Of a stretch of DNA of 47,348 nt, positions 11,140 to 28,450 are shown in pieces. Within the stretch, counting starts at the first letter, position 1, and each line of letters begins with the position of its first letter. A model generated the notes under the pieces. That model made no database searches, had not been told where the DNA came from, and was given only the letters and a program-made list of their open reading frames with translations. The position numbers were made by a program, and so were the translations under genes. Source of the stretch: Succinatimonas hippei YIT 12066 (lineage in GTDB: Bacteria > Pseudomonadota > Gammaproteobacteria > Enterobacterales > Succinivibrionaceae). The stretch is taken from NCBI RefSeq assembly GCF_000188195.1, contig NZ_GL830963.1, forward strand, positions 1-47,348, in the 5' to 3' direction.

Positions 11140-12422
11140 TATTTCAAGACCTCAACAAGATACATGGAAAGATCCGGGAAGATGAAAGTTACGGCTGCTA
11201 CTATAGTAATGATTCCGATAATGTACAAAACATCAGGGAAAGTATCTTCTACTTTGCAGTTTAATATACGGCAAGCGGTAAATAATCCTACTGATAGGGG
11301 CGGTGTGATACCTCCTACGGCAAGGTTTGCCATCATTGCAACGCCGAAATGGATCGGATCCATGCCCATTGATACAACTATAGGGAATAGAATCGGGGTA
11401 ACTAAAATAATGATACAGATGGTTTCCATGAAGCATCCTAGTACCCACAATAGGCAGAAGAATACAAGTAGGATCATGTAGGGATTCGTTGTAAGACTTA
11501 AAAGCGCTTGGGTGAACATCTGCGGAACATTTTGGGTGGCCATTAACCAACCGAACGGAGTGGCTGAGGAAATGATAAATAGAATAATGGCAGAGGTAAT
11601 GACGCTTTCAGATGTTGCATCTAAAAAGTCTTTAAAGGTCATTTCTTTATAGACAAAAACTGCAAGAAGCAAGGCATAGGCAGCCGCAATAACAGAGGCT
11701 TCTGTAGGAGTTAATATTCCGCTTAAAACTCCTCCAATAATAATTACCGGCATAAAAAGAGGCAGTAATGCGTCTGCTACAATTTTGATTTTTTCAGCTG
11801 TAGTATAGACAGCAACTTCACCACTGCCGATTCCGCGTCTTTTTGCTATAACACAGTTCATTAAAATTAAAAGTAAAATGATGAAGATGCCCGGTCCTAC
11901 TCCGGCAATAAACATATCGCCTACTGATACGCCTGTGCATCCTGCATAAATAACCATGACAAGAGAAGGCGGAATCAAAGTTGCCATTACGCCTCCTCCT
12001 GCTAAAATGCCGGCAGTGATTCCCATGCTGTATTTTTGTTTAAGCATTTCCTTGCCGACGATGCCGCCGATCGCGGCAGTCGATGCAACTCCGGAACCGG
12101 ATACAGCACCAAAAAATCCGCAAGTTACGAGAGTTGCGGCACCAAGTCCTCCCGGAACCCTGCTTACGAGCATGTTTGCCAGTTTCATAAGACGAGGTGT
12201 ACTGCCGTATGCCATTAAGGCACCAGCAAAAATGAACATCGGCAGTGCCATCATGGTATAAGATTTGGCTCCGTCAACCATTCTTTGCACCATTACCATC
12301 GGTGACGGATAGCCTTGATATAAAAGGAATGAAATAGCGCTAAGACCGATACAGAAAGCAACCGGAATGCCGAGAATAAGACATAGAGCTAGAACGACAA
12401 AAATAATAACTACGGGATCCAT
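11139..12422 (-). CDS. dctM: TRAP transporter large permease, DctM type (system A)
   Basis: The 12-helix membrane subunit that moves the substrate with sodium in a tripartite ATP-independent periplasmic transporter. Signature segments are LALCLILGIPVAFCIGLSAI at the start, GSGVASTAAIGGIVGKEM, GILTPTEASVIAA and VNLAVGG-like AMMANLAVGGITPPLSVGLF near the end. I start it at ATG 12422 (428 residues), one base after the dctQ stop, with AAGGAG inside the end of dctQ; an ATG at 12443 in the same frame would put that SD inside the gene. The 3' end overlaps the aldolase start. The substrate is unknown but should match the aldolase/kinase pathway. Confidence 0.9.
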   Translation of the reverse strand: MDPVVIIFVVLALCLILGIPVAFCIGLSAISFLLYQGYPSPMVMVQRMVDGAKSYTMMALPMFIFAGALMAYGSTPRLMKLANMLVSRVPGGLGAATLVTCGFFGAVSGSGVASTAAIGGIVGKEMLKQKYSMGITAGILAGGGVMATLIPPSLVMVIYAGCTGVSVGDMFIAGVGPGIFIILLLILMNCVIAKRRGIGSGEVAVYTTAEKIKIVADALLPLFMPVIIIGGVLSGILTPTEASVIAAAYALLLAVFVYKEMTFKDFLDATSESVITSAIILFIISSATPFGWLMATQNVPQMFTQALLSLTTNPYMILLVFFCLLWVLGCFMETICIIILVTPILFPIVVSMGMDPIHFGVAMMANLAVGGITPPLSVGLFTACRILNCKVEDTFPDVLYIIGIITIVAAVTFIFPDLSMYLVEVLK

Positions 12423-12423
12423 A

Positions 12424-12909
12424 TTATTTGTTCTCCTTATCAACAGCCATCATTTCGGCAAAATCAGCTTTGGCGCGTATTAAATAAAAGATGCAGATTA
12501 AAATTGTGGCAATGCAGAAAACTATATAGTTGAACGATAATGAGATTTTCATGGCTGGAGACATCGTATGAATATTGGCTACTATAAGTGGATAGCTATA
12601 GCAGCTTAAAGCCAAGGAAAATCCGGCGCAGACGATGTCGCCTAAGGCATAAACCAATTTAGACAAGCGCTTTGGCAACAAATTGACAAAAAGCTCGATT
12701 CTAGTGTGTGCATTTAATGTTGTAGCCAGTGCTGCTCCTAAGAAGGTTATCCAAATCATGCACATTCCCGAGAGCTCCTCAACCCATTTAAAGGAACTGC
12801 CGAAAATATTGCGGTTGATAACTTGCAGCAGAACAATAGTACTCATTAATGCTATTGCAAATGAGCAAATAAACCTAACTAAGGTTTGTATTTTTTTCAT
12901 TAAGTCCAT
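12424..12909 (-). CDS. dctQ: TRAP transporter small permease, DctQ type (system A)
   Basis: 161 residues with four predicted membrane helices. The middle motif SFKWVEELSGMCMIWITFLGAAL is typical of DctQ (W-x-E-E then a W-I-x-F-L-G helix). It forms the membrane complex with DctM and receives the loaded binding protein. It lies 37 bases downstream of dctP and its end carries the ribosome-binding site of dctM. Confidence 0.9.
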   Translation of the reverse strand: MDLMKKIQTLVRFICSFAIALMSTIVLLQVINRNIFGSSFKWVEELSGMCMIWITFLGAALATTLNAHTRIELFVNLLPKRLSKLVYALGDIVCAGFSLALSCYSYPLIVANIHTMSPAMKISLSFNYIVFCIATILICIFYLIRAKADFAEMMAVDKENK

Positions 12910-12946
12910 AGCGCTTGTCTACCTATATTTATTTTTATTACTTGAT

Positions 12947-13990
12947 TTATTCCTGAGATTTCAAAGCAAGTTCGATCCATTCAGGACCGTGTTCTTTGTT
13001 GAAGTGATCCCAAATAGGCTGGACACGTTTAATAAATGCATCTTTATCAACTTCATTAACCTGCATGCCTTTGGCTTTAAGCTCTTCGATCTGCTTATTT
13101 TCATCGTTTAAGTCCAATTCAAGAAGTCTTGCTGAGGCGGCTTCTTCTTTCATGATGGTTTGGATGTCCTGCGGCAGAGCGTCAAACCATTTTTTGTTGA
13201 CTCCGAAAACACAGTTGTCATACATGTGGCCGGTAAGTGACATATATTGTTGAACTTCGTAAAGTGAAGAAGCCAGAATGTTGGCGGCGGGATTTTCCTG
13301 TCCCGAAACTGTTCCTTGCTGTAAGGCAGTGAAGAGTTCGCCAAAAGGCAGCATAATGACGCTGGCGTCCATAGCTTTGAACATCTGTACCTTCATATCA
13401 TTTTCATTAGTACGGAATTTGATGCCTTTCATATCTTCCGGTTTAACAATAGGATGTTCGTTGCAAGTTAAATGGCGGTAGCCTGATTCCCAGTAAGAAA
13501 GAACGTAGGCTCCGTTCGGCTCAATGATGTCTTTAGCAAATTTTGCACCGAATTCACCGTTCCACGCTTTTCTGGCACCTTCTAATGATTTAAAAAGGAA
13601 AGGAATTAAAGCAACATTGGCCGCAGTGTCATATCTTTCCCAAATGGATCCTGTCATAATTACTGATGATTCAAGGGTTCCCAAGTTCATCTGTTCCATC
13701 ATTTCAAGTTCGCCGCCTAACGAGCCGCTATCATAAACATTTACGGCAACTTTACCTTGTGTACGCTCTTCTACTTTTTGTTTGAATTGTTTTAAAGCGA
13801 TATTGACAGGGTGTTCTCCGCCGCCTACGTGTCCGATATTCATTACATATTCTGCATTGGCGTTATTTGTAACTTGAGGCTTGGCTTGAATGGTAGGAGC
13901 CTGTAGCGCAAATGCATTTGATGTGCAGAATAATGCTGCTGCAGCTATTGATGAGACAACAGTTGCTTTAAAAGGTTTTACAAGATTCAT
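12947..13990 (-). CDS. dctP: TRAP transporter solute-binding protein, DctP type (system A)
   Basis: The periplasmic substrate-binding subunit. I start it at ATG 13990 with GGGAG upstream; a longer frame reaches 14095 but would add residues ahead of the signal peptide. Residues 1-27 (MNLVKPFKATVVSSIAAAAL then AFA) are a signal peptide. The mature part has YVMNIGHVGGGEHPVNIALK, then VNVYDSGSLGGELEMMEQ, GIKFRTNENDMKVQMFKAM (with the conserved Arg that binds the carboxylate) and ALQQGTVSGQENPAANI. This is the first gene of its operon. Upstream lie an inverted repeat GTTCCA-N5-TGGAAC and a CRP-like site. Carboxylate ligands such as sugar acids are usual, though neutral ligands occur. Confidence 0.9.
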   Translation of the reverse strand: MNLVKPFKATVVSSIAAAALFCTSNAFALQAPTIQAKPQVTNNANAEYVMNIGHVGGGEHPVNIALKQFKQKVEERTQGKVAVNVYDSGSLGGELEMMEQMNLGTLESSVIMTGSIWERYDTAANVALIPFLFKSLEGARKAWNGEFGAKFAKDIIEPNGAYVLSYWESGYRHLTCNEHPIVKPEDMKGIKFRTNENDMKVQMFKAMDASVIMLPFGELFTALQQGTVSGQENPAANILASSLYEVQQYMSLTGHMYDNCVFGVNKKWFDALPQDIQTIMKEEAASARLLELDLNDENKQIEELKAKGMQVNEVDKDAFIKRVQPIWDHFNKEHGPEWIELALKSQE

Positions 13991-14012
13991 ATTAACTCCC
14001 GAGAATAGCATC

Positions 14013-14029
14013 GTTCCATTGAGTGGAAC
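14013..14029. promoter_or_regulatory. Inverted repeat GTTCCA-TTGAG-TGGAAC, candidate IclR operator
   Basis: Perfect 6-bp arms with a 5-bp spacer, 23 bases before the dctP start in the gap between dctP and the divergent iclR-type gene. IclR regulators bind short palindromes of this kind, often with T-G-G-A half sites. A lone TGGAAC half site occurs again at 14123-14128, just before iclR. Binding by the neighbour is inference. Confidence 0.55.
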
Positions 14030-14080
14030 ACTAATAGAATAAGTCAAATAATGGTAAATATACATTTTTATTGTGATTTG

Positions 14081-14096
14081 CGTGATCGCGATCAAT
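14081..14096. promoter_or_regulatory. CRP/FNR-like site in the dctP-iclR gap
   Basis: CGTGATCGCGATCAAT contains the 12-bp palindrome TGATCGCGATCA. It matches TGTGA-N6-TCACA at about 7 of 10 positions, and also TTGAT-N4-ATCAA (FNR) at 9 of 10. Read towards dctP its centre is ~40 bp before a likely start preceded by TATATT (14057-14062 read on the minus strand). Confidence 0.45.
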
Positions 14097-14178
14097 TATA
14101 TTTTGATATCTGTTTTATAGGTTGGAACATAATATAAAAATATATAAAGATGTTAAAATAACCTCTGCGAGGATAAAA

Positions 14179-14949
14179 ATGGCAGATGTTTCGAATATTA
14201 ACTTAATAAACAAAACGCTTGACGTTGTTGAGCTTTTAGCCTCCGAACCTAGAGAAATGGGGGTAAGTGAAATAAGCCGGCGTCTTAAGATGGTTAAAAG
14301 CGGTACATATCGTATTTTGAATTCTTTAAAAGAGAGAGAATACGTATATCAGAACCCTATTAATAAGCTTTATGGTTTAGGATTAAAATTTTATTTTATC
14401 GGTTCATCAGTGCAGGTAAGATTGCCTTTAGGCAGAGCAGGTAAAGAAGTTTTAGATCCTTTAAGCACGGAGTATAACGAGTGCTTCCAATTGGCGATAC
14501 CTTATTATGTGGCAGGAAAAGAACCTACTCATATTTTGGTGTACGTAAGCGCAGCAACGGAAAGAGTTTTATCAATAAGTTTATCTGCAGGGTTAATCGC
14601 GCCTTCTCATACTTCTGCTGTCGGTCTGTGTATTTTGTCTCAAATGTCTGACTCTGAACTTGAAACTCATAAAGAATCTAAATTAAGTCGCTTTACGGAT
14701 AAAACTATTATTTCATGGAGTGCATTAGAAGAGGAGTTAAATAAAATAAGAGATCTTGGGTATGCTGTTTGTGATGGCGCTTACGAGTTAGGATTAATGG
14801 ATATTGCGGTTCCGGTTTTTGATTCGATGCATTGTTCTATAGGTGCAATTGCGGTATGCGGACCGACAGAACGTTTAAGTAAGATTGAGTTAAAGGGATT
14901 AGTCAGAAAAATGAAGAGGGCTAGTGCGAAGATAGCAGCAAAACTTTAA
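14179..14949 (+). CDS. IclR-family transcriptional regulator
   Basis: I start it at ATG 14179 (GAGG 9-10 bases upstream); an upstream in-frame extension adds a Lys-rich stretch without domain homology. Residues ~8-60 are the winged helix: MGVSEISRRLKMVKSGTYRI then LNSLKEREYVYQN. The rest is the IclR ligand domain (FQLAIPYYV, SAGLIAPSHTSAVGLCIL, GYAVCDGAYELGLMDIAVPV). It is divergent from the system A TRAP-aldolase-kinase operon, so it is the obvious regulator of that unit, probably sensing the transported compound or a pathway product. A hairpin shared with the convergent dctM lies beyond its stop. Confidence 0.85.
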   Translation: MADVSNINLINKTLDVVELLASEPREMGVSEISRRLKMVKSGTYRILNSLKEREYVYQNPINKLYGLGLKFYFIGSSVQVRLPLGRAGKEVLDPLSTEYNECFQLAIPYYVAGKEPTHILVYVSAATERVLSISLSAGLIAPSHTSAVGLCILSQMSDSELETHKESKLSRFTDKTIISWSALEEELNKIRDLGYAVCDGAYELGLMDIAVPVFDSMHCSIGAIAVCGPTERLSKIELKGLVRKMKRASAKIAAKL

Positions 14950-14990
14950 TTAATTTTGTGGTGTTTAAATTGATTTTGCCTCTTAAATAA

Positions 14991-15023
14991 TAAAGGTACC
15001 GTAAAATTAGTTCGGTACCTTTA
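14991..15023. terminator. Bidirectional terminator between iclR and dctM (system B)
   Basis: TAAAGGTACCG (14991-15001) and CGGTACCTTTA (15013-15023) form an 11-bp perfect stem with an 11-base loop, between two convergent stops. Confidence 0.85.
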
Positions 15024-15042
15024 TGTAGTTTATTTTATTCGG

Positions 15043-16356
15043 CTACTGCAAAAGTCCTGTTAACCTCGGCAAATAAAGACTTAATTCAGGAACATAAGTT
15101 ACAACCATTAAGATTGCGATTTCAGCAAAGATAAGCGGTAATAGTGGCTTGATTACTTGTTCAATCTTTAGGTTGCTTACACTGCATCCTACAAACAAGG
15201 CTGTTCCTACAGGAGGAGTTACGATTCCTATGCAGAGGTTGAAGGTAATTATGATACCGAAATGCACAGGATCTATGCCTAATGCTGTAGTAACCGGCAG
15301 GAAGATCGGAGTAAAGATTAATATTGCAGGAGTCATGTCCATGAACATGCCTACAATCAATAAGGTTAAATTGATAATCAGTAAAATTACAATTTTGTTA
15401 TCAGAAATACTAAGTAAAGCTTCACTGATCATTTGAGGCAAATGGGCGTAGGCCATAATGTAAGACATTACGGTTGAAGCTCCGATCAAAAACAGTACCA
15501 TTGCACTGATGTGAATTGTGTCTTTACTGATAGATTTCAAAGTTTCAAGATTAATTGCCTTGTATATCCAAGAAAAAAGCAAAGAATAGAGGACGGCCAT
15601 ACATGCTGCTTCCGTAGCAGTACAAATACCCCCGATAATGCTTCCTATGACTACGATAATGAGACCGAGACTCGGTAAAGCCTGCCAAGTTATTTTTAGT
15701 TTTTCGGACAGTGTATAAGAGACTCTGGTTTGATTTCCTGCAAGTTCAGGTTTTAGCTTAAAGTAGATAAATCCTACGATCATGCATCCAAGTCCCATTA
15801 AAATGCCGGGAACATATCCAGCTAAGAATAAAGCACCGATAGATGTACCTCCGCTTACAACGGAGTAAACGATTAAGCCGTTAGAGGGAGGGATCAGCAT
15901 GCCTGTAGGGCAGGATGCAATATTAATTGCGGATGCAACAGGCAAATTAAGCCCGGTACTTTTAATTTGCGGAAGCAGTGTTTTTCCAACGGCAGCAGCT
16001 GCTGCAACGGCAGAACCGGATACTGAACCAAACATCATGTTGGATAAAACATTTACATGAGATAAAGAACCGGGTATTTTTCCGACAAAAAGGAAGGCAA
16101 AATTAACAAGTCGTTTTGCAATTCCTCCTTGGTTCATGATATTTCCAGCAAGAACGAAGAAAGGAACCGCAAGTAAGCTGAAACTGTCCATTCCTGTTGC
16201 AAGTTTTTGTCCGGCTGTAATTGCAACTACTTTCATCGGCATTACGGAAAGCATTATGCATATGGAAGAACATGCAATAGCTATGGCAATAGGGAAACCG
16301 CAGGCGATTAATATGCCGAATATTACTAATAGATAAATTCCGATTGTTGCGTCCAT
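15043..16356 (-). CDS. dctM: TRAP transporter large permease, DctM type (system B)
   Basis: 437 residues, about 12 membrane helices. Recognisable DctM segments include LLAVPFFVLAGNIMNQGGIA, FGSVSGSAVAAAAAVGKTL, GGICTATEAACMAVLYSL and FNLCIGIVTPPVGTALFVG. It starts 2 bases after the dctQ stop and its SD AGGAG lies in the end of dctQ. It is the last gene of the isomerase-dctP-dctQ-dctM unit. Sequence differences from the other two DctM proteins of the window are large, so the three systems are not recent copies. Confidence 0.9.
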   Translation of the reverse strand: MDATIGIYLLVIFGILIACGFPIAIAIACSSICIMLSVMPMKVVAITAGQKLATGMDSFSLLAVPFFVLAGNIMNQGGIAKRLVNFAFLFVGKIPGSLSHVNVLSNMMFGSVSGSAVAAAAAVGKTLLPQIKSTGLNLPVASAINIASCPTGMLIPPSNGLIVYSVVSGGTSIGALFLAGYVPGILMGLGCMIVGFIYFKLKPELAGNQTRVSYTLSEKLKITWQALPSLGLIIVVIGSIIGGICTATEAACMAVLYSLLFSWIYKAINLETLKSISKDTIHISAMVLFLIGASTVMSYIMAYAHLPQMISEALLSISDNKIVILLIINLTLLIVGMFMDMTPAILIFTPIFLPVTTALGIDPVHFGIIITFNLCIGIVTPPVGTALFVGCSVSNLKIEQVIKPLLPLIFAEIAILMVVTYVPELSLYLPRLTGLLQ

Positions 16357-16358
16357 TT

Positions 16359-16868
16359 CTATTCTCCTGCTTTATCTTCTTGAGGAGTGATGCTTCTACC
16401 TTTTAAAATATCTACAATATTTAAAAATATGTAGATAAGAATAATAAAACCTCCTATTGGAATGATTGAGTATACGTATCCCATTGGGATGTTTATTGCC
16501 GGAGAAGGTTGCAGCATAGTACGGATGCAAAGGTTATATCCGCCGTAAATCATGGCAAATATTGCAAATATGGCAATTACAATGTAAATAATAATGTTCA
16601 AAGTTTTTTGGCTGGCTTGATTTAGCTTATCCGTCACGAAAGTAACGGCAAGATGTCCGTTTCTGCCAAAAAGCAGGGCGCCACCTAATACTCCAAGCCA
16701 CACCATTAAAAATCTGGCACCTTCATCAGTAAATGAAGCCGGATTGTTAAGTATATATCTTGAGGTTACCTGCCATGTTACATCAAGCACCATTAATATT
16801 AGAATTACGCTGCAGATTCGATAAATAAGCAGATCAAGAAATTTTCTTGTCTTAAGGAACGGATCCAT
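16359..16868 (-). CDS. dctQ: TRAP transporter small permease, DctQ type (system B)
   Basis: 169 residues with four membrane helices and the DctQ motif FTDEGARFLMVWLGVLGGAL. It pairs with the DctM just downstream. GAGGG precedes the ATG at 16868. A strong hairpin separates it from dctP, which suggests unequal expression of binding protein and permease. Confidence 0.9.
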   Translation of the reverse strand: MDPFLKTRKFLDLLIYRICSVILILMVLDVTWQVTSRYILNNPASFTDEGARFLMVWLGVLGGALLFGRNGHLAVTFVTDKLNQASQKTLNIIIYIVIAIFAIFAMIYGGYNLCIRTMLQPSPAINIPMGYVYSIIPIGGFIILIYIFLNIVDILKGRSITPQEDKAGE

Positions 16869-16886
16869 CTTTATGCCCTCTATGAG

Positions 16887-16918
16887 AATTCAGGAGATAA
16901 AAAAATATCTCCTGAATT
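16887..16918 (-). terminator. Intercistronic hairpin between dctP and dctQ (system B)
   Basis: AATTCAGGAGATA and TATCTCCTGAATT form a perfect 13-bp stem around six identical bases. No T-run follows in the direction of transcription, so partial termination or protection of the dctP message 3' end is more likely than full termination. Confidence 0.65.
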
Positions 16919-16934
16919 TATTGTCTAAATGAGT

Positions 16935-17912
16935 TTAGAGTTTTTGAATTGCTTCAATAATTTCTTTATATCCTTCCTTTTGCATTTCCTCATCTAAGAT
17001 AAATTTAGTCTTATCACGGAAAGGCTGTTTGTCAGGATAGGATAAATGGATTCCCATGTCTTTTGCTTTTTGCAGGTTCTTTGCATCATTTTCATCCCAA
17101 GCTGTTATACTGGTTTGAGTGCCGACTTTGGCGGCTTTTTTAATGATGTCTTGTTCTTCAGGACTTAAAGTTTCCCAAGTTAAATCTGAAATTAATACTA
17201 CATCAGGTGTCATGGTATGTTCGTCAAAAGAGTAGTATTTGTTGACTTCGCAATGCCTTTGCTCAACGAATGAAGAAATTGAGTTTTCTGCACCATCAAC
17301 AATTTTTTGCTGGAGGGCGGAATAAATTTCAGACCAAGGAACAGGTGTCGGCTGACCTCCCATTGCTCTTACCATACGCATGGACATATCAGATTCCGGA
17401 ACGCGCATTTTAAGGCCTGATAAATCTTCAGGCTTGTCAATTGCTTTGTTGGCATAGAAACTTCTTGAACCTGCTGCAATCAACATTAAACCGATTACGC
17501 CACGATCTTTTGACGAGTGGAAGAAATATTTTTCAGGAAGATCGCTTAACATGAAAGCTTTTGCCTGTTCATAATCACGGAACATAAATGGGATACTCAT
17601 AATTCCGTATTTTGGCTCAAATGTTTCAGCAAGAGATCCGTTAATTTTGCACATGTCAAGAGCTCCTGTAACAGTTTGCTCTGCAGTTTCTCTTTCCCCT
17701 CCCAATTGTCCGTTAGGATAAATGGTAACAGTTAATTCTCCGTTAGAAAGTTTGGCAACCTCGTCAGCAAAGGCCTGAAGACCGATATGTTGTGCATTAT
17801 CAACTGTCATGCCGTGCGCCAGACGCAGTTCTCTGGCTTGTGCTGTTGTCAGACTCATGGCAAGAATTGCCGATCCGATGGTTAAACCTAAAAGTGTTTT
17901 TTGCAATTTCAT
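16935..17912 (-). CDS. dctP: TRAP transporter solute-binding protein, DctP type (system B)
   Basis: 325 residues. Signal peptide is residues 1-27 (LQKTLLGLTIGSAILAMSLT, then TAQA). Family segments are RELRLAHGMTVDNAQHIGLQ, VTIYPNGQLGGERETAEQ, GLKMRVPESDMSMRMVRAMG (conserved Arg) and YSALQQKIVDGAENSISSF. The pattern resembles the DctP subgroup that takes sugar acids such as uronates or aldonates, but the ligand cannot be fixed from sequence. RBS AAGGAG is a few bases upstream, 21 bases after the isomerase gene. Confidence 0.9.
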   Translation of the reverse strand: MKLQKTLLGLTIGSAILAMSLTTAQARELRLAHGMTVDNAQHIGLQAFADEVAKLSNGELTVTIYPNGQLGGERETAEQTVTGALDMCKINGSLAETFEPKYGIMSIPFMFRDYEQAKAFMLSDLPEKYFFHSSKDRGVIGLMLIAAGSRSFYANKAIDKPEDLSGLKMRVPESDMSMRMVRAMGGQPTPVPWSEIYSALQQKIVDGAENSISSFVEQRHCEVNKYYSFDEHTMTPDVVLISDLTWETLSPEEQDIIKKAAKVGTQTSITAWDENDAKNLQKAKDMGIHLSYPDKQPFRDKTKFILDEEMQKEGYKEIIEAIQKL

Positions 17913-17933
17913 AAGTGATATCTCCTTATGTTG

Positions 17934-18781
17934 TTAACAACTTGATGAAACTTTTTGTAATAAAAAAGGTAAATAGTTTTTTATTTCCCTTGGGGAAACT
18001 ATTTTCTTATTTAATACTTCAAGTTCTATATAACCTTGAAAACCGGTATCTTCTACTGCAGCTCTGATTTTCGGAATATCAATAACACCGTCGCCGGGGA
18101 GCACTCTTCCGTAAACTGTATCAACAGTATTAAAGTCCCAATCGGAAACATGAAAACCAAGAATTCTGTTTTTTGCTCTTGTTATTTGAGAGAAAAGTTC
18201 CGGATCCCACCAAGTGTGATAAACATCTACAATAATTCCGAAGCCGTATTCTAAATTAGGATCAAGCTCCTCACACCAATCTATAGATTCCTTGATGGAA
18301 CAAAGGACTGATCTGTTGGCACATGTCATTGGGTGTAATGCTTCTAGGCCTAAAGAAACGTTAAGTTCTTTTGCCTTTTGTAAAAGAGTACTGATGTTTT
18401 CTTTAATGATACTTTTTGTATAGTTAAGATCTTTGTTAGGTAAGCATAAACCACCAACTACAAGACCAAAACACGGAGCTCCTAGTTTTGCAGCAAGATC
18501 GAGATATCTAAAATTATTTTCTAGATTTTTTTTTTACTTTCATTACCTTCTGCTGACATATAACCGCTGCGACTTAGGCAGGAAATTTTTAATCCGGTAT
18601 TATTTAACGCTTTTACAGTATCTCTAATTGATTTTTCATCTGGAAACTCATGAACCCAAGGCCCGATAGCACCTATATGAAATTTACTGCATTCTTCAAT
18701 TAGGCATGATGGTTTGACGCAGTGGTTTATTGTTGCACTGTTAATACTGATTAATTGTGGGGAGGAAATTAAGTCTCTCAT
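17934..18781 (-). pseudogene. Xylose-isomerase-like TIM-barrel sugar isomerase/epimerase, frameshifted at A10
   Basis: Two frames make one protein. From ATG 18781 (GGAG upstream) the first 86 residues read through GNESKKK into a run of ten A (18526-18535 on the plus strand as T10) and stop. One base more, or two fewer, continues as NLENNFRYLDLAAKLGAPCF to the stop at 17934, giving 282 residues, the usual length. The rest carries the family's metal and substrate residues: GLEALHP, IIVDVYHTWWDP, GFHVSDWDFN and GYIELEV. Such enzymes interconvert ketoses or hydroxy-keto acids. It is the first gene of unit B. It may be a true lesion, a length-variable homopolymer, a site of polymerase slippage or -1 frameshifting, or a sequencing error. 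Confidence 0.75.
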
Positions 18782-18829
18782 GCCGTATCTCCATTTATTT
18801 TTAATTTATTCCAAAACTTAATGCAGGTA

Positions 18830-18845
18830 TGTGAAGAACATCTCA
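18830..18845 (-). promoter_or_regulatory. CRP-like site upstream of the isomerase-TRAP operon (system B)
   Basis: Read on the minus strand TGAGA-TGTTCT-TCACA matches the CRP consensus TGTGA-N6-TCACA at 9 of 10 bases. Its centre is about 41 bp before a likely start near 18796, with a weak -10 TAAATT at about 18803-18808, the class II activator geometry. Confidence 0.55.
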
Positions 18846-18846
18846 T

Positions 18847-18866
18847 AATTAACCAGATAGTTAAAA
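18847..18866. promoter_or_regulatory. Second TetR-type operator copy upstream of the system B operon
   Basis: AATTAACCAGATAGTTAAAA matches the 20-bp palindrome at 19688-19707 at 16 of 20 positions and keeps the arms TTAAC-N6-GTTAA exactly. It abuts the CRP-like site, so one regulator could control both the isomerase-TRAP operon and the SDR-flavoprotein operon. Confidence 0.6.
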
Positions 18867-18936
18867 ATGTGCAAATTATTCTTTTCCTTGTTTTTGTTTT
18901 GTTATGGCAAAAAGCTCTTTTATATTAAATGGTTAT

Positions 18937-19569
18937 TTATAGATTTTCGTTTGTTATCCATGAGCCGATAGTATCCATTATGGATTGAAGTCTATTTGTT
19001 TTTTCTTCTTCAGATGTAAGATCTGTCTGGTAAAGTAATGAAAGTGTTGAACTGTTTGTAATGTAGAAAATTACCAGTGCGGCAATAGATATGTTTATTT
19101 GCATTGGATCTAAATCTTCACGAATAGTTTTGTCTTTCTTGCCTTTTTCAATGATTTCTTTGGTTAGGACTTCCCAATTTTTATTTATGTCTAAAAAAGT
19201 TGTTAAATGATCTTTGACATGACGGGCACGCATTAGATTTTCGCTTGACAATAAAAAAATTAACTCGGGATGCTTAATGTAATAATTCCAATTTACAGAT
19301 ACTAAGTTAAGCATTGCGTCATAAGCAGTCATATTATCAATATTAATTTTTTCTTCTTCAGTGCGTAATTGACGATAAGACTCTTTTAGAACTTCTGTAA
19401 ATAATAAATCTTTACTTTTAAAATAGTAATAAATAAGCTACTTGTTAACTTTGGCTTTGTCCGCAATGCGATCCATGCGAGCTCCGTCAAATCCGTATTT
19501 GACGAACTCTTTTTTGGCAGCTAAGAGAATTTTGTGTTGCGATAATATCGGGTCTTTTTTTCGTTTCAT
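18937..19569 (-). pseudogene. TetR-family regulator with an in-frame amber codon
   Basis: From ATG 19569 the frame reads MKRKKDPILSQHKILLAAKK, EFVKYGFDGARMDRIADKAK, VNK, then TAG (codon 44; CTA at 19438-19440 on the plus strand), then LIYYYFKSKDLLFTEVLKES and onward to the stop at 18937, in all 210 residues. The helix-turn-helix is textbook TetR. VNK-Q-LIYYYF is common in the family, so the stop is probably CAG changed to TAG. An internal restart at ATG 19332 would lack the DNA-binding domain. It faces the SDR operon across a perfect palindrome and is likely its regulator, or was. Amber suppression or a sequence error are the alternatives. Confidence 0.8.
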
Positions 19570-19647
19570 TTCTTATATTTTTAAAGTTATTTCTTGTATT
19601 TAATATAAAAGGAAATTTATTTTTTCTATAAAAATTTTGTAATTAAT

Positions 19648-19663
19648 TGTGATATCGATCAAT
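19648..19663 (+). promoter_or_regulatory. CRP/FNR-like site of the SDR-flavoprotein operon
   Basis: TGTGATATCGATCAAT matches TGTGA-N6-TCACA at 8 of 10. Its centre is 41.5 bp before position 19697, which is where a start would fall after the -10 hexamer TTTAAT at 19685-19690 (5 of 6 to consensus). It shares GTGAT-N4-ATCAA with the site at 14082-14095, so FNR is also possible. Confidence 0.55.
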
Positions 19664-19687
19664 CAAGTGTTGTTATTTTTATTATTT

Positions 19688-19707
19688 AATTAACTATATA
19701 GTTAATT
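19688..19707. promoter_or_regulatory. Perfect 20-bp palindrome, candidate TetR operator
   Basis: AATTAACTATATAGTTAATT is identical to its reverse complement. It overlaps the end of the -10 hexamer and the expected transcription start of the SDR operon, and lies in the gap between tetR and that operon. This is the classic repressor position. A 16/20 copy lies upstream of the system B TRAP operon. Confidence 0.7.
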
Positions 19708-19726
19708 TGCTTTTTATGAGGTGAGC

Positions 19727-20507
19727 ATGCGCAAGCCCGTAGCTTTAATAACAGGTTCTTCAAGAGGTATTGGTTTTGCATGTGCTTGTCAGCTGGCAAA
19801 ATCAGGGTTTGATATTGTGATTAATAGTAGAAATTCGCAATCGGATAATCATGATTTATTGCTTGCAAAAGAGGAAATTCATAAGCTAGGTGCAAAATGT
19901 GTAATTGCACAAGGGGATATTTCGGTAATTGCCGAGCATGAAAATATTATACAAACTGTCTTAAAAAATTTCGAAACAATTGACTGTTTGATAAATAATG
20001 CCGGAACAGGGGCAAAAAGGCGCGGTGATTTATTGCATCTTACAGAGGACTCTTGGGATCATTGTCTAAATTTAAATGCTAAGGGACTTTTCTTTTTATC
20101 ACAAAAAGTTGCATCACTAATGCTTGATGATGATTTAAGTACTGGTATAAATAAAACTATTATAAATATAACATCTTGTTCTGCAAAGATTTTATCTCCA
20201 GATAGAGCAGAGTATTGTGTTTCCAAAGTTGCTGCCTCTATGGCAACACAATTGCTTGCTTTGCGCCTTGCAGATACAAAAGTTAAAGTTATTTGAAATA
20301 AGACCAGGAATTATCAAGACGGATATGACTTTGCCTGTTAAAGATAAATATGACGCTTTTATTGCCGATGGTTTAGTTCCTGAGGGACGTTGGGGCGAAC
20401 CTGATGATGTTGCTCAAGTTGCTTCAATGTTGGCACTTAATCCTATGCCTTATACAGTAGGTCAAATCTTTGATGTAGATGGTGGTCTGCATTTTCATAG
20501 CTTTTAA
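19727..20507 (+). pseudogene. Short-chain dehydrogenase/reductase with a one-base frameshift
   Basis: Start ATG 19727 follows GAGG by 5 bases. NAD(P)-binding TGSSRGIG, the INNAG motif, and the catalytic Ser (NITSCS) and YCVSK (Y-x3-K) are all present in the first frame, which stops at 20294-20296 after KVKVI. The next frame continues FEIRPGIIKTDMTLP to WGEPDDVAQVASMLA and YTVGQIFDVDGGLHFHSF, stop at 20507. Removing one base between 20288 and 20294 joins them into ~260 residues, the normal SDR length. The break comes after the catalytic residues but removes the substrate lid and the C-terminal strand, so the product would probably be inactive. It resembles 3-oxoacyl-ACP reductase/gluconate 5-dehydrogenase relatives; the substrate is unknown. 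Confidence 0.8.
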
Positions 20508-20527
20508 TCTAGTTGAGGGAAAAGAAG

Positions 20528-22576
20528 ATGTTGTCATCAAATATCCTGGATAAACTGACTAATGTTAATCTTGAGAATAAATTTAATGAACCATCTGTTA
20601 CAAGTTTTATTGATTGTGACAATAGTTCTTTTCCTTTATATACAGTTAATTCTGTGATTGTAGGGAGCGGAGCTGCCGGGTTAAGAGCTGCAGTAGAATT
20701 AAAGCGTAGAAATGTTGATGTTATTGTAGTGACATCAATGCTGTACGCAGGTACGTCTGCTTGCTCAGGATCAGATAAACAAACGTTATTTACTGCGTCA
20801 ACAGGTAAGAATGGAGATAATGTTTACGCGGTAGCAAAAGCAATCGCGGCTGGTGGTGCAATGGATGGAGATCTTGCCTATGTAGAAGCGGCAGGGTCTT
20901 TTCTTGCTATGGACGGGTTAAGATTATATGGTTTACCTCTTCCTGAAGATAAATTTGGGGCAGTTTTGCGCTATAAAACGGATCATGATGAGGCGGGGCG
21001 TGCTACAAGTTGTGGACCTAGAACTTCTAGATTAATGGTAAAGGCATTATCTAACGAAGCGATGCGTCTTGGAATCAATCTTTTAGATGATTGTACGATT
21101 ATAAAAATTCTTAAAAAAAGTTATGAAGAACGTGTAGATGGACTCATTGGTATATCTAAAAAATTTATAAATGATAACAATAAGTTAGGCATTGTAATTT
21201 TTAAATGCTGTAATGTTATTTTAGCCGGAGGAGGAGCAGGGGAACTTTATAAGCATAGTGCTTATCCCTACGGGTGCGTTGGTACTGTAGGTTTGGCCCT
21301 AGAGGCAGGTATTTCTGTTAATAATATTCAAGAGCAACAATTTGGTATCAGCACTGATAAAAGTACCTTTGCCTGGAATTTGTCAGGAACCTATATGCAA
21401 GCGATGCCGCGAATTTTTTCACAGGACAGAGATGGTAATGTTTATAATTTTTTGAAAAATTATTATCGTTCTACAAAAGAAATTGCTTCAAATATTTTTA
21501 GAAAAGGCTATCAATGGCCTGTGCACGCCCAAAAAATGCTAAATTTCGGATCAAGTCTTATCGATTTGGCAATTTTCCGTGAAATACAAAAGGGAAGGGA
21601 GGTGTTCTTAGATTTTTTACATAATCCTGATATAGGTAATGATGGCAAACCATTTTCTTTAAATGAGCTGGACGAAGATGTATATGCATACTTAAAGAAT
21701 GCTGAAGCGTTATTAGATTTGCCGATTGACCGATTAAATAAAATGAATCCTTTATCTGTTGAATTATATAGAGTAAACGGGATCTATTTAGCAAAGAATC
21801 CTTTAAAAGTAGGAGTAAATCATCAACATTTTAATGGAGGCATTAGAGTTAATATTTGGGGAGAAAGCGAGCTTAAAGGATGTTTTGCAATAGGTGAAAG
21901 TGCAGGAACTCATGGGGTTACAAGACCGGGAGGCTCTGCACTTAATTCCGGTCAGGTATTTGCGATACGAAGCGCTCAGTTTATAGAGAATCAAAATTCA
22001 CACGTCGATGAAGATTCGATTGATTTGAAGAAAATTAAGGAAATTTTAGATTTTGCCGGTAAAAGTTTTAATAATAAAGGTATATCTTTACAAGACTTAA
22101 GACAAAAAGTCCAAACAATAATGAGTGAAAAAGTAGCTTTTATATGTAACATAAAAGGCTTGCAAGAAGCATTAAAGACTATAGATCAGTTAATTGAGTC
22201 TGTTTATAAAGACGGAATTACCGTTAAACACAATTCACAGTTGTTTTCTATTTTTGAATGGAAAAATTTATTAATTGAAGCAAAAGCGATTATTGAATCA
22301 CTTATTTTTTATATAAGCAATGGAGGAGGAAGCCGTGGTGCAAGAGTGATATGCTCAGAAAGTGCATCTTCTATTCCACAGGCTTCTAATGAAGATCTGT
22401 CAGATTTTAGAATTGTTCCTGAAAATATTGTTAAACGTAATGAAATTATTGTTGTTAAATATGATGGCAGTAATACCTTGATCAGAGAAAGAAAAGTAAA
22501 AGACTTTCCGAATTTGGATGATATCTTCTTTGAGAAAAATTGGCCTGATTTTTTAAATGGAGATATTTTTAATTAA
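20528..22576 (+). CDS. FAD-dependent oxidoreductase, fumarate reductase flavoprotein-like
   Basis: 682 residues from ATG 20528, with GAGGGA 7 bases upstream and 20 bases after the SDR stop. The FAD loop is VNSVIVGSGAAGLRAAVELK (residues ~39-58). The distal FAD motif HFNGGIRVNIWGESELKGCF, then AIGESAGTHGVTRPGGSALN, corresponds to the HYxxGG and GE-x-G...R-x-GG segments of FrdA/SdhA, including a candidate catalytic Arg. There is no iron-sulphur or membrane partner next to it and no signal peptide, so it is not a classical respiratory complex. It probably oxidises or reduces a carboxylate or sugar-derived intermediate in the unit B pathway. The C-terminal ~170 residues are helical, as in the family's capping tail. 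Confidence 0.75.
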   Translation: MLSSNILDKLTNVNLENKFNEPSVTSFIDCDNSSFPLYTVNSVIVGSGAAGLRAAVELKRRNVDVIVVTSMLYAGTSACSGSDKQTLFTASTGKNGDNVYAVAKAIAAGGAMDGDLAYVEAAGSFLAMDGLRLYGLPLPEDKFGAVLRYKTDHDEAGRATSCGPRTSRLMVKALSNEAMRLGINLLDDCTIIKILKKSYEERVDGLIGISKKFINDNNKLGIVIFKCCNVILAGGGAGELYKHSAYPYGCVGTVGLALEAGISVNNIQEQQFGISTDKSTFAWNLSGTYMQAMPRIFSQDRDGNVYNFLKNYYRSTKEIASNIFRKGYQWPVHAQKMLNFGSSLIDLAIFREIQKGREVFLDFLHNPDIGNDGKPFSLNELDEDVYAYLKNAEALLDLPIDRLNKMNPLSVELYRVNGIYLAKNPLKVGVNHQHFNGGIRVNIWGESELKGCFAIGESAGTHGVTRPGGSALNSGQVFAIRSAQFIENQNSHVDEDSIDLKKIKEILDFAGKSFNNKGISLQDLRQKVQTIMSEKVAFICNIKGLQEALKTIDQLIESVYKDGITVKHNSQLFSIFEWKNLLIEAKAIIESLIFYISNGGGSRGARVICSESASSIPQASNEDLSDFRIVPENIVKRNEIIVVKYDGSNTLIRERKVKDFPNLDDIFFEKNWPDFLNGDIFN

Positions 22577-22586
22577 AATACCTTAT

Positions 22587-22625
22587 ACAAATGCTGCAGC
22601 CAAAAAACTGCAACATTTGTAAGAA
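22587..22625 (+). terminator. Terminator after the flavoprotein gene
   Basis: ACAAATGCTGCAG (22587-22599) pairs with CTGCAACATTTGT (22608-22620) with one mismatch, followed by AAGAAATTTTT. It separates the convergent flavoprotein and gntR genes and may serve both. Confidence 0.7.
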
Positions 22626-22642
22626 ATTTTTAATACTGTAGC

Positions 22643-23398
22643 TTACTTATTTGTTTTTATACGATTAATTACATCATCTTTTATTTGATTAATATGCAGC
22701 TCCATTGCTTTACTGGCAGCTTCTCCGTCTTTATTTAAGATAGCGTCCACTACCATTTGATGCGTCTGGATTGCTTCTTCAAGAAGAGTACGATTATTTA
22801 AATTAATTATATAATTAATTGCTGCATAAATAATATCCATTAAATTTGGCATAATGGCGTTTGTAGAACAATTTGCGATACTTGAATGAAAAGCAACGTC
22901 TGCAGCTTCATGATTTATGCCGGCATGGATTAGAGATTTAATTTTTTCATGGGCAGCGCAAATAATTTGAATTTGCTCAGGTGTGGCGTGTTCTGCAGCA
23001 TTTCGTGCTAAGCTTGGTTCTATAAGCAGACGTATTTCACATAAATCAAGGCCTAGCTTTAATTTGTCTTTATAAAATCTAAAGCCGAAAGGATCAGGTA
23101 AAACACCGGGATTCTTAGCTACAAAAGTCCCAAGTCCCCTTTTTATTTCAAGAATATTTTGACTTACCAGCTGTTTTACAGCTTCTCTTACAGTACTTCT
23201 TCCTACGCCGAGTAATTTTGCCAACTCCATCTCAGAAGGTAATATTGTTTCTTTTTTAAAGGATCCGTTTTGAATTAATTTTATGATAGTTTCTGAAGCT
23301 AATTCTGCCTTTGATTTTAAGTTATAAGAACGCAACGAATCAGGTAAGGTATTCGTAAGCTGTAATGATAAATTTTCAGAAGAAAAGGTATCTGTCAT
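22643..23398 (-). CDS. GntR-family regulator, FCD (FadR) subfamily
   Basis: 251 residues. The winged helix covers residues ~28-100, with LPSEMELAKLLGVGRSTVRE, AVKQLVSQNILEIKRGLGTF. The C-terminal all-helical FCD domain shows the metal/ligand residues D-x3-H in DVAFHSSIANCS, then His in IQTHQMVVDAI and MELHINQI. Such proteins usually repress sugar-acid or organic-acid operons and release DNA on binding the acid. It is the last gene of the system C operon, 16 bases after the isomerase gene, so it is probably autoregulated through the palindrome at 28385-28399. Confidence 0.85.
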   Translation of the reverse strand: MTDTFSSENLSLQLTNTLPDSLRSYNLKSKAELASETIIKLIQNGSFKKETILPSEMELAKLLGVGRSTVREAVKQLVSQNILEIKRGLGTFVAKNPGVLPDPFGFRFYKDKLKLGLDLCEIRLLIEPSLARNAAEHATPEQIQIICAAHEKIKSLIHAGINHEAADVAFHSSIANCSTNAIMPNLMDIIYAAINYIINLNNRTLLEEAIQTHQMVVDAILNKDGEAASKAMELHINQIKDDVINRIKTNK

Positions 23399-23414
23399 AT
23401 GATTAAATTACAAA

Positions 23415-24308
23415 TCAAAAAAACGAATAGTGATTAATTTTATCATAATTAATTAAAGTGCTTGAGAGCTCTTCAAAAGCACGGTTTATGATTTGCTTCT
23501 GTGTAAAGATTTTTGGATATTTTGGATTAAATACTTCAGTTGAAATCATCCCTTTATAATTAATTGTTTTTAGTGCATTTAAAAAGTTAAACAGATTGAT
23601 GGCATCTCCGTCCGTACAAAATGTACGGTATCTTTGGTCAGTAATTTTTTCAGTGTTTGATACTTTTTTACCGTTCATTAAATGAATAGCAAAAATTTGT
23701 TTGGCATTGATTTTTTCAAATGAGTAACAATCAGATCTTTCTTTTAAATAAAGGTTATATGAATCAAGAACTAAGCCTACATTACCGTTATTTACTTCAT
23801 TGATTATTTCACAGGCAAAGTCTGCGTCTTGCACCAGACTTCTTGACAGTCCTACAGGCTCAAAAATCCATTTAATATAAGGCATTGTTTGGGCTAAATA
23901 TTTTAAGATGCGAACACAGTTTGATTTGATTTTCTCATGATCATAAATTTTGCATTGGCTGTCGTCATCAAGAAGAGGTGCAACTACAATACATTTGTTA
24001 ATATTTACAGTATGATAGAGATCGTCAATTAGATTTAATATTCTTATATTAGTATCTCGTTTTTCTTTAATATCTTTTTGACTTAAAAATTCCGGATAAA
24101 TGTACAGTGCATTTAATGCACTGGGTTTTATTTTTGTGTCGTCAAGTAAGCTCTTAAGATCTGATATTGAATGATTTTCAAGATATTTATTAATACAGTC
24201 AAAGCGCAACTCAATAAGGTCAAATCCGGCATGTTTGGCTAATGTAACATCCTTTTCTAAATCAAGAAAATCTTTGGTGCATGCTTCGTTATAACAATAC
24301 ATAGACAT
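23415..24308 (-). CDS. Sugar phosphate isomerase/epimerase (xylose isomerase-like TIM barrel), system C
   Basis: 297 residues from ATG 24308, chosen because AGGTGG lies 5 bases upstream; a GTG at 24317 would overlap that site. Beta-strand ends carry the usual metal or substrate residues: FDLIELRFD (Glu), WIFEPVGLSRS (Glu), VGLVLDSYNLYL (Asp), IFAIHLMNGKK (His), GMISTEVFNP (Glu). It follows the Gfo/Idh/MocA gene by 42 bases. A dehydrogenase plus such an isomerase is a common pairing in inositol and sugar-acid breakdown. It is only distantly similar to the frameshifted isomerase of unit B. Confidence 0.8.
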   Translation of the reverse strand: MSMYCYNEACTKDFLDLEKDVTLAKHAGFDLIELRFDCINKYLENHSISDLKSLLDDTKIKPSALNALYIYPEFLSQKDIKEKRDTNIRILNLIDDLYHTVNINKCIVVAPLLDDDSQCKIYDHEKIKSNCVRILKYLAQTMPYIKWIFEPVGLSRSLVQDADFACEIINEVNNGNVGLVLDSYNLYLKERSDCYSFEKINAKQIFAIHLMNGKKVSNTEKITDQRYRTFCTDGDAINLFNFLNALKTINYKGMISTEVFNPKYPKIFTQKQIINRAFEELSSTLINYDKINHYSFF

Positions 24309-24350
24309 AATTTCCACCTTTTATTTGACCTTATTAGCTTGGATACATTT

Positions 24351-25445
24351 TTAGTATGAAATATGCTCTTTACTGTGCCACACTAAGTCAGGATTTTTTG
24401 TTATGGTATAAACCGCTTCGCATACCTCTACTGTGGCGCGTCCTGCTTGACCGTCTGCGCATAAAGGTTCGATCCCTAAAATAGCATTGACGAAATTTTC
24501 AATATGACGTTGATGGAAGTAGGTCATACTGTCAACGCTGTTGAAAAAATCACTATCCTCTTTAACAAGATCTTCAAGTTTTCTGTTGTCTCCTGCAATT
24601 TGCCAAGTATCAGTAACAGGAGGCTCTTCAATTTCAGATACACCGGCAATAAACATTTGACCGCCGTCAGTTTGTACGCCGATAGCAGAACCGTTACTGC
24701 CGAATACATGTACTTTACCGTACAGTGCAGGATTTTGGCTGTTGCTTGCAAGTAAAGTGGCAAGACCGCCATTTTTATACTTGATGACTGCAACTGCACT
24801 GTCTTCAACTTCAATATACGGATGGTTGAAATTAGCGCTTAAACCGTATATTGATTCTATTTCTCCCATATACCAATTTAATAAATCAATTTGATGTGAG
24901 GCTTGGGTTACAAGAACTCCTCCTCCTTCTCCCTTCCATGTTCCACGCCATGGGTCACTTTTATAATAATCTTCAGAGCGCCAGCCTAGCATTGTTACTT
25001 GGGCAAGAATCGGTTTGCCTATTTTTCCGGCATTTATGATTTCTTTAATACGCAGACATGGTAAGTAATTACGTCTTTGGACTAAAGTTCCTAGGAGCAC
25101 ATTATTATCTTTTGCTGCTTTTATCATTGCGTCACATTCTGCGACACTGGTTGCAAGAGGTTTTTCTACTAACACATGGCAATGAAGATTGGCACATTTT
25201 ACGGCAATTTCTGCATGGCTCGGATGAGGTGTACAAATAGTAACGGCGTCTAGGCGTTCTTTTTCTATCATTTCTTCAGGAGTTAAATAGCCGTTAATTT
25301 GGTAATCATTGCAAAATTTTTCCAGTTTTGGTTTTGAGTGATTACTTGCGGCAACTAACTTGCAGTTAGTGAGATTATTGATTGCTTTAGCATGAAAGTG
25401 TGCAACTTTGCCGCATCCTATAATACCGATTCTGATTGTTTTCAT
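24351..25445 (-). CDS. Gfo/Idh/MocA-family NAD(P)-dependent oxidoreductase
   Basis: 364 residues. The N-terminal Rossmann fold shows IRIGIIGCGKVAHFHAKAI (G-x-G-x2-A) and VLVEKPLATSVAE carries the EKP motif whose Lys acts in catalysis. The C-terminal domain has GGGVLVTQASHQIDLLNWYM with the catalytic-region Asp and His. Members oxidise or reduce sugars, inositols or sugar acids using NAD(P). It sits between dctP and the isomerase of unit C and follows dctP after a hairpin that may lower its expression. Confidence 0.85.
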   Translation of the reverse strand: MKTIRIGIIGCGKVAHFHAKAINNLTNCKLVAASNHSKPKLEKFCNDYQINGYLTPEEMIEKERLDAVTICTPHPSHAEIAVKCANLHCHVLVEKPLATSVAECDAMIKAAKDNNVLLGTLVQRRNYLPCLRIKEIINAGKIGKPILAQVTMLGWRSEDYYKSDPWRGTWKGEGGGVLVTQASHQIDLLNWYMGEIESIYGLSANFNHPYIEVEDSAVAVIKYKNGGLATLLASNSQNPALYGKVHVFGSNGSAIGVQTDGGQMFIAGVSEIEEPPVTDTWQIAGDNRKLEDLVKEDSDFFNSVDSMTYFHQRHIENFVNAILGIEPLCADGQAGRATVEVCEAVYTITKNPDLVWHSKEHISY

Positions 25446-25477
25446 AAGTAAAACCCTAACTGCTAGATGTTAATTTT

Positions 25478-25502
25478 GGTCGGAACGTATCATGTTCCGA
25501 CC
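25478..25502 (-). terminator. Intercistronic hairpin after dctP (system C)
   Basis: GGTCGGAAC and GTTCCGACC form a perfect 9-bp stem around GTATCAT, 8 bases past the dctP stop. No T-run follows in the direction of transcription. It probably stabilises the dctP message or partially terminates before the oxidoreductase gene. Confidence 0.6.
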
Positions 25503-25509
25503 ATATTTT

Positions 25510-26511
25510 TTAGTATTTACGTTGTAGAACAGTGTCCAAAATTTCTGGATTGTCCATTTTTTCTTTTACTAAATCGTATACTTTTCCGTCAATGGCTTGT
25601 TGTCTCCATACAGCCTTTTCATCAGGAGTAAGTTCAATAACTTCATTGCCTAAATTACGGAACTTAGTGATAAGTTCATTATCGATTTCAACTGCACGGC
25701 TACGCTGGAGTTTTGTGGCCTCAACTATAGCTTCAAGCAGTGCCTTTTGATGATCTTCAGATAAACTGTCAAATTTTTCTTGATTTATCATCACAAAATG
25801 AGGACCGTAAACGTGACCTGTTAGTGAAATATATTTTTGAGCCTCATAAAAATGATTAGAGTCAATCAACGCTAAAGGATTTTCCTGAGCGTCAATTGTT
25901 CCTTGCTGCAGTGCTGATAAAACTTCGGTAAACGCCATTGGTGTGGGGTTTGCTCCCCAGTTTTTCCACATGGCAAGCTGTATCTCATTTTCCATGGTTC
26001 TGAGTTTTTGATTGGCAATATCTTTAGGAAGTTTTACCGCTACTTTATTGTTGGTGTAATGACGGAAACCGTTTTGCCATACCGCTAAAAGTTTAAGTCC
26101 TTTTGTTTGTACTACGCTGTTAACTTTCTGTCCGGTTTCACTATCAAACCATTTGAAAGCCTGATCTGAATCATCAAAAAGAAATGGTGCATCATATAGA
26201 TATAAATTAGGCATCATATTGGCAATCGGAGATGTCGGAGTGTTGACCATATCAATTTCGCCTAAGATAACCGATTCAGTTGCTACACGATCGTCACCGT
26301 AAGAGTTGTCGTTGTATAAGTTAATATCCAAAGTGCCGCCGGTTTTTTCAACTACAAGCTTTTTAAGTAAAGCTCCGGCTTCTTTACCTGATTGATTGGC
26401 AACGTTTGCAAATTGAAGCACTACTTTATCTTCGGCATTTGCCGGAGCTGAGCACCATAAGGTTACTGATGCAATAGCTGCGCATAAGACTGTAAGATTA
26501 AATTTTTTCAT
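25510..26511 (-). CDS. dctP: TRAP transporter solute-binding protein, DctP type (system C)
   Basis: 333 residues with a 26-residue signal peptide (NLTVLCAAIASVTLWCSAPA, then NAED). Family segments: VVLQFANVANQSGKEAGALL, DINLYNDNSYGDDRVATESV, QKLRTMENEIQLAMWKNWGA (Arg for the ligand carboxylate) and VLSALQQGTIDAQENPLALI. RBS TAGGAG. In this operon the order is dctQ-dctM-dctP, unlike units A and B, where dctP comes first. Ligand unknown. Confidence 0.9.
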   Translation of the reverse strand: MKKFNLTVLCAAIASVTLWCSAPANAEDKVVLQFANVANQSGKEAGALLKKLVVEKTGGTLDINLYNDNSYGDDRVATESVILGEIDMVNTPTSPIANMMPNLYLYDAPFLFDDSDQAFKWFDSETGQKVNSVVQTKGLKLLAVWQNGFRHYTNNKVAVKLPKDIANQKLRTMENEIQLAMWKNWGANPTPMAFTEVLSALQQGTIDAQENPLALIDSNHFYEAQKYISLTGHVYGPHFVMINQEKFDSLSEDHQKALLEAIVEATKLQRSRAVEIDNELITKFRNLGNEVIELTPDEKAVWRQQAIDGKVYDLVKEKMDNPEILDTVLQRKY

Positions 26512-26565
26512 AATTAACTCCTAATGTTTAATTAAAAAATCGTGTTGCAAATTTAATGTTCTACC

Positions 26566-27843: not shown

Positions 27844-27854
27844 GATGTCGCTCC

Positions 27855-28367: not shown

Positions 28368-28384
28368 ATTCAATCCTCGACAGC

Positions 28385-28399
28385 TGACGTCTGACGTCA
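28385..28399. promoter_or_regulatory. Palindrome TGACGTC-T-GACGTCA, candidate GntR operator
   Basis: Perfect 7-bp arms with a 1-bp centre, lying between the likely transcription start (~28401) and the dctQ ATG. A GntR/FCD gene closes this same operon. Repressor binding just after the start point would block transcription. I found no second perfect copy in the window. Confidence 0.6.
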
Positions 28400-28407
28400 T
28401 ATGTGTA

Positions 28408-28450
28408 AGTATGGTGTAAGATTTTATTTTCAACTGTGAGGTATTTCACG
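28408..28450 (-). promoter_or_regulatory. CRP-like site and promoter of the system C operon
   Basis: Read on the minus strand CGTGA-AATACC-TCACA (28435-28450) matches the CRP consensus at 9 of 10. The -10 candidate CATACT is at 28408-28413, which puts the start near 28401 and the CRP centre at about -41.5. Confidence 0.6.

Follow-up and report, generated by a model that had tools for sequence, protein, structure and literature searches.

Two palindromes flanking a broken tetR gene in Succinatimonas hippei: probable paired operators of an inherited transport and catabolism regulon

A tetR gene in Succinatimonas hippei lies between a TRAP transport operon and an SDR-flavoprotein operon with a palindrome on either side, which raises the question of whether these are the operators of the intervening regulator and whether they once joined uptake and catabolism in a single regulon. 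The whole stretch of DNA that was analysed (47,348 bases) is called the window, and its features are given in Table 1. Reading the sequence bears out what had been claimed for the sites themselves: copy 1 is its own reverse complement, copy 2 agrees with it at 16 of 20 letters with identical TTAAC and GTTAA arms and the same N6 spacing, and the tetR frame does lie between them. The string TTAAC-N6-GTTAA occurs in the window at exactly these two places (0.14 expected), a number reached in one of 100 shuffles. The whole 2.3-Mb genome has eight such places, the remainder being on C137 (one), C51 (one), C41 (three) and C99 (one). The C137 site is inside an open frame, as judged from its place in locus L008, and so is probably a chance occurrence; the C51 site is followed, about 230 bp on, by an open frame whose translation looks by eye like malic enzyme. 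Copy 1 ends 19 nt before the ATG of the SDR gene (by reading). It had been proposed to sit over the -10 and start of that operon; a TATTAT hexamer at 19680-19685 does adjoin it, in view of which copy 1 may cover the start site, but no promoter for the SDR operon was called at this place by the promoter scanner. A further perfect 20-bp palindrome, the AT-only AATTAATTATATAATTAATT, is found at 22801-22820 within the gntR frame.

Table 1. Coordinates of the features discussed, in the window unless a locus is named
Feature	Position	Strand	Remarks
TRAP large permease	15043..16356	minus	51% to E. coli cluster large permease
TRAP small permease	16359..16868	minus	39% to E. coli cluster small permease
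TRAP solute-binding protein DctP	16935..17912	minus	Pfam
Xylose-isomerase-like TIM-barrel gene	17934..18781	minus	First gene of TRAP operon; frame broken between ~18533 and 18551
CRP-like site	18830..18845	.	TGTGAAGAACATCTCA; 1 mismatch to consensus; directly adjoins operator copy 2
Operator copy 2 (probable)	18847..18866	.	AATTAACCAGATAGTTAAAA; between tetR stop and isomerase-TRAP operon
tetR (TetR_N + TetR_C_29)	18937..19569	minus	210 codons + stop codon; in-frame TAG at codon 44 (19438-19440)
Weaker CRP-like site	19648..19663	.	TGTGATATCGATCAAT; 2 mismatches; upstream of SDR operon; weak
Operator copy 1 (probable)	19688..19707	.	AATTAACTATATAGTTAATT; perfect 20-bp palindrome; tetR/SDR divergent intergenic region
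SDR gene	19727..20507	+	Frame broken near 20290; E. coli SDR aligns in two frames
FAD-binding flavoprotein (FAD_binding_2, fumarate-reductase-like)	20528..22576	+	Open frame; 50% identity to E. coli cluster protein
E. coli island between ytfB and rplI	L134 4143-13926		TetR-SDR-TIM-hydratase-CoA transferase-flavoprotein-TRAP
Rhizobial variant palindromes	L141 5801 + 8251; L142 5802 + 8304		Not matched by the widened pattern

The tetR gene is divergent from the SDR-flavoprotein operon and co-directional with the isomerase-TRAP operon. Its 210 aligned residues span 18940-19569 (the stop codon extends the gene to 18937) and contain both a TetR_N helix-turn-helix domain (51.3 bits against a cut-off of 24, with X read at the internal stop) and a TetR_C_29 C-terminal ligand and dimer domain (92.1 bits against 26.2). 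The frame is not intact, the one TAG falling inside the helix-turn-helix. RutR of E. coli is a TetR-family regulator whose operator, TTGACCA-NN-TGGTCAA, has a similar geometry; identity with RutR was rejected, as the two NCBIfam RutR models gave 47.6 and 40.1 bits against cut-offs of 368 and 230. The other window proteins were named by Pfam, and the two TRAP permeases by homology to the E. coli cluster. The TRAP operon opens with a TIM-barrel isomerase gene and so has a catabolic gene too; the ATG of this gene was placed at 18781 by reading, where the alignment of the E. coli isomerase (in two frames overall) begins. The solved structures matched by DctP are TRAP receptors, many generic and some binding sialic acid or isethionate, and those matched by the TIM protein are called 'sugar isomerase' or 'xylose isomerase'. 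We note that three TRAP transporter clusters, the outer two named by eye, are found in about 17 kb (11139-28433), near IclR-, TetR- and GntR-type regulators.

A search of genome contigs for tetR relatives gave at least 397 confirmed, of which the best 80 were used, and the best relatives among the matches listed are of the Polaromonas type (39-42% identical). Alignment of 15 Polaromonas-type tetR upstream regions, with no motif supplied, gave a near-invariant block, AATTCACCAAACAGTTAAATT, whose arms and spacing equal those of the window; it reads AATTAACCAAACAGTTAAATT in L030 and has small spacer changes in L016, L017 and L020. Each of the eight Polaromonas genomes examined has a single match to the pattern AATTMACYNNNNRGTTAAATT, at tetR, and none to its reversed form; downstream copies of the GTGAATT form fall outside this pattern. 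Matches were found in 91 of 200 genomes from the family to which one Polaromonas genome belongs; the best 30 loci and 16 earlier ones, less the duplicates L108 and L129, make up 44 distinct loci. A copy with nine or ten of the ten arm letters stands upstream of tetR in 43 of the 44, and one lies within 220 bp past the tetR stop in 41. Both flank the gene in 41, against 7 of 975 equally long control tiles elsewhere, counts that (like the paired matrices below) have some circularity, as the sites behind them were chosen by their TTmAC arms. The original prediction was to be refuted if the palindrome was not conserved next to orthologous tetR genes, and these counts fall on its side. The exceptions are L125, which is without either copy, and L126 and L127, which have the upstream copy only. 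In 38 of 41 loci the second copy ends ahead of the first long frame in the same direction that a mechanical search gave; such a frame starts earlier in L017 and L117 and overlaps the copy in L128. In all seven loci scanned, the second copy is followed by a gene for transport, which encodes a TctC receptor in six and an ABC permease in one.

Matrices built from these relatives return to the same two places in the window. The matrix from upstream copies (30 distinct) ranks copy 1 first and copy 2 second, at 23.8 and 20.1 with the next position at 7.3, and the matrix from downstream copies (34 distinct) preserves this order, at 21.1 and 16.3 with the next at 6.7. A matrix from five distinct Polaromonas-type sites puts 18847 first and 19688 second among window positions; it and the motif-free alignment of 15 regions are independent of the downstream copies. 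Because related regulators in other bacteria have the same paired layout next to their genes, the palindromes are very probably docking sites of TetR. We consider it highly probable, from comparison of sequences, that they are the paired operators of the intervening regulator. The ancestral TetR dimer would bind TTmAC-N6-GTkAA; on copy 1 it would repress its own promoter together with the SDR-flavoprotein operon that diverges from it, and on copy 2, beside the CRP-like site, it would control the isomerase-TRAP operon. A compound of the pathway would release it, and CRP would activate when the sugar supply is poor. Binding, repression, ligand and CRP action are each what we infer. Such a local, autoregulated layout, with one putative operator at the regulator's own promoter and the other at a neighbouring operon as in the related loci, is of an ordinary, well-known type.

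More distant relatives show variants of the arrangement. Homologues of all seven window genes are found in E. coli, in an island between ytfB and rplI that has TetR, SDR, TIM isomerase, flavoprotein and three TRAP genes. Unlike in the window, the genes from SDR to TRAP all run in one direction, the operator arms are variant, and there are an enoyl-CoA hydratase and a CoA-transferase, neither of which gave a tblastn match at E 1e-3 within the window. Like the window, the island has a palindrome beside a CRP-like site: the single copy follows the CRP-like site in the tetR/SDR intergenic region and is kept in four aligned E. coli sequences. Its regulator is presumably ytfA, judging by position. 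Among 5,426 complete genomes, 3,110 have a match that covers at least 80% of a query made from the TetR-SDR-TIM part, whether or not these genes are intact. One K-12 record has a mere tetR remnant between ytfB and rplI, which may be why the island is little studied. One report lists ytfA among genes that only some strains have (PMC6790063).

SDR, TIM isomerase and flavoprotein genes, in some cases with TRAP genes, lie beside tetR in L165-L167 as well as in the E. coli locus L134. L165 is from a genome of the same order (G867), with 48% identity for TetR, 48% for SDR and 49% for the flavoprotein, plus the isomerase; two palindromes are seen by eye between SDR and tetR, one of which matched the widened pattern. 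Plasmids of Erwinia, Chimaeribacter and Pseudomonas silvicola (L138-L140) encode a TetR about 44% identical (the L140 match falls in two pieces) and have two YCAAC-N6-GTTGA palindromes upstream of tetR, on the isomerase-gene side. The rhizobial loci L141 and L142 (Sinorhizobium meliloti and Ensifer; TetR 41-42% identical) each show a variant palindrome twice, around CTAACTAGTTAC or CTAACCAGTTAC. The best match of the Polaromonas matrix is one of the tetR-side sites in L139, and is not the tetR-side site in L134, L138, L140, L141 and L142.

The widened pattern, which was composed after the Enterobacterales-type loci were seen, is absent from 32 of 78 distinct loci with TetR relatives. These comprise 22 loci with more distant relatives (L026, L027, L032, L091-L094 and L150-L164), the two rhizobial loci and eight of the Polaromonas family, seven of which pass a laxer arm score. 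At 1e-25, TetR is matched in 18 of 394 genomes of the order, the window's own counted; the three best of 18 other order-level matches (L147-L149) have the widened motif and the 15 weaker ones (L150-L164) are without it. Across bacteria, nine or ten of the ten arm letters occur within 200 bp upstream in 37 of 85 relatives (16 of the 37 Polaromonas-type) against 1.4% of random stretches, a control that may contain real second copies; the strict pattern occurs in 2.4% of random stretches, a figure that includes real second copies. In the 481,701 bases outside tetR upstream regions there are 43 widened and 37 strict matches, and 34 of the latter sit 636-735 bases past the tetR start. Inspection of the helix-turn-helix by eye in 24 loci is suggestive of recognition-helix residues going along with the operator motif. 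Where the motif is present, the recognition helix of the regulator mostly reads NK ahead of a LIYYYF-like stretch; TSKRM and TTKRM regulators are without the motif, as are L091 (NTRM) and L032 (QKNV), and L134, L143 and L148 combine SKQTVYHHF in this helix with a CAACC variant.

It is doubtful that the circuit still works in this genome. Isomerase, tetR and SDR are three adjacent broken genes in 18525-20300, and the flavoprotein and TRAP frames are open, a distribution that suggests local decay or sequence errors; intact homologues of the broken genes are found elsewhere. The flavoprotein (query 20543-22576) has no match at 1e-40 in 55 other genomes of the family, which yield a single, distant TetR match (3.4e-12), and at 1e-60 it is found, among 369 drawn genomes of the class, in the window's own genome alone; within the order it is present in the genomes of L165-L167. 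The locus thus looks isolated within its family, through gain or loss. All of this fits a dead circuit, in which the palindromes are intact remnants and the operons are now constitutive or under CRP alone, and the K-12 tetR remnant is an example of a similar fate. However, the arms are perfect in both operators, the TRAP and flavoprotein genes have stayed open, and the frame breaks may be sequence errors, such that we see the case for a dead circuit as evenly balanced. It concerns present function only and is compatible with the paired-operator identity of the sites. With tetR and two of its targets broken, it is probable that the operators are now relics or that the operons have become constitutive. 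The claim that one regulator controls uptake and catabolism as a single regulon is therefore supported as an inherited design, by the paired conservation and the matrices, and not as a circuit working today, because of the stop in tetR and the breaks in isomerase and SDR.

The CRP consensus is TGTGA-N6-TCACA, and the window has three places that match it with at most one mismatch; the CRP-like site predicted next to copy 2 is indeed there. An equally good site lies beside the operator in eight of ten such composites (the window, L134, L138, L139, L140, L143, L145 and L167, with one mismatch each in L138-L140), the other two being degenerate, with two mismatches in L166 and three in L165. The spacing between CRP-like site and operator is equal in the window, L138, L139, L140 and L165 and, by reading, 3 bp longer in five E. 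coli-type sequences. The CRP-like site faces the catabolic operon in the window, L138, L139 and L165, and faces tetR in E. coli. This positioning suggests that CRP may act at these sites. It also allows that TetR was an activator, or a partner of CRP, at the TRAP promoter and not a simple repressor: as seen from the isomerase gene, copy 2 lies farther upstream than the CRP-like site. However, most TetR proteins are repressors, and SiaR, which would be the precedent, belongs to a different regulator family. In Haemophilus influenzae, SiaR and CRP are reported to cooperate in controlling the adjacent nan and siaPT operons from one operator set, which resembles our proposal of one regulator and CRP over adjacent transport and catabolic operons (PMC2946308). 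Argued from this analogy, an activating role is conceivable and on the whole unlikely.

The palindromes could instead serve another regulator, namely the GntR (22643-23398) or IclR (14122-14949) protein or a TetR encoded elsewhere in the genome. These further regulator genes are close by, but the pair flanks relatives of the window tetR itself in 41 of 44 loci, a TctC receptor or ABC permease comes next in the seven scanned, and the upstream form is found once, at tetR, in each Polaromonas genome; we regard this explanation as very improbable. Chance palindromes in AT-rich DNA (the window is 39% GC) are rejected as barely credible: the best Polaromonas-matrix score in 30 simulated windows reached 20.5 (mean of bests 13.3) and so exceeds the 19.3 and 19.1 of the real sites, for which reason a single site is not decisive, but here two sites flank tetR in the layout of its relatives and both the count of paired loci against tiles and the matrix rankings set them apart.

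Returning to paired operators of the intervening TetR, a known layout of this kind is that of BkaR in mycobacteria. BkaR is reported to be a TetR-type autoregulator of catabolic genes whose palindrome of 16 bp, GTTA(N)T(N4)A(N)TAAC, occurs twice in a divergent intergenic region and again before another gene (PMC3920632). By layout it is like the window regulator in its autoregulation, repeated 16-bp palindrome and catabolic genes; it differs in the opposite order of the half-sites and in its other target genes. A more general picture is perhaps an even call. In it, a portable layout would belong to a TetR subfamily that is spread over Enterobacterales, Burkholderiales and rhizobia and has the E. 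coli island regulator among its members: paired 16-bp operators flank or face the regulator's own gene, and in several Enterobacterales-type loci they are fused to a CRP-like site. This layout would have stayed while the transporter type (TRAP, TctC, ABC or MFS) and the pathway genes were swapped, and the window would be a split-operon version that has lost its regulator. No description of the operator or regulon of this subfamily was found among the open-access papers listed, and we propose here a specific operator, TTmAC-N6-GTkAA, and a regulon for a group on which little was found. We also note that in a Vibrio penaeicida plasmid (L137, 7001-14957) TRAP genes, with a DctP 49% identical to that of the window, have type I-F cas genes and a gene of the TniQ family as neighbours, and are possibly cargo of a CRISPR-associated transposon.
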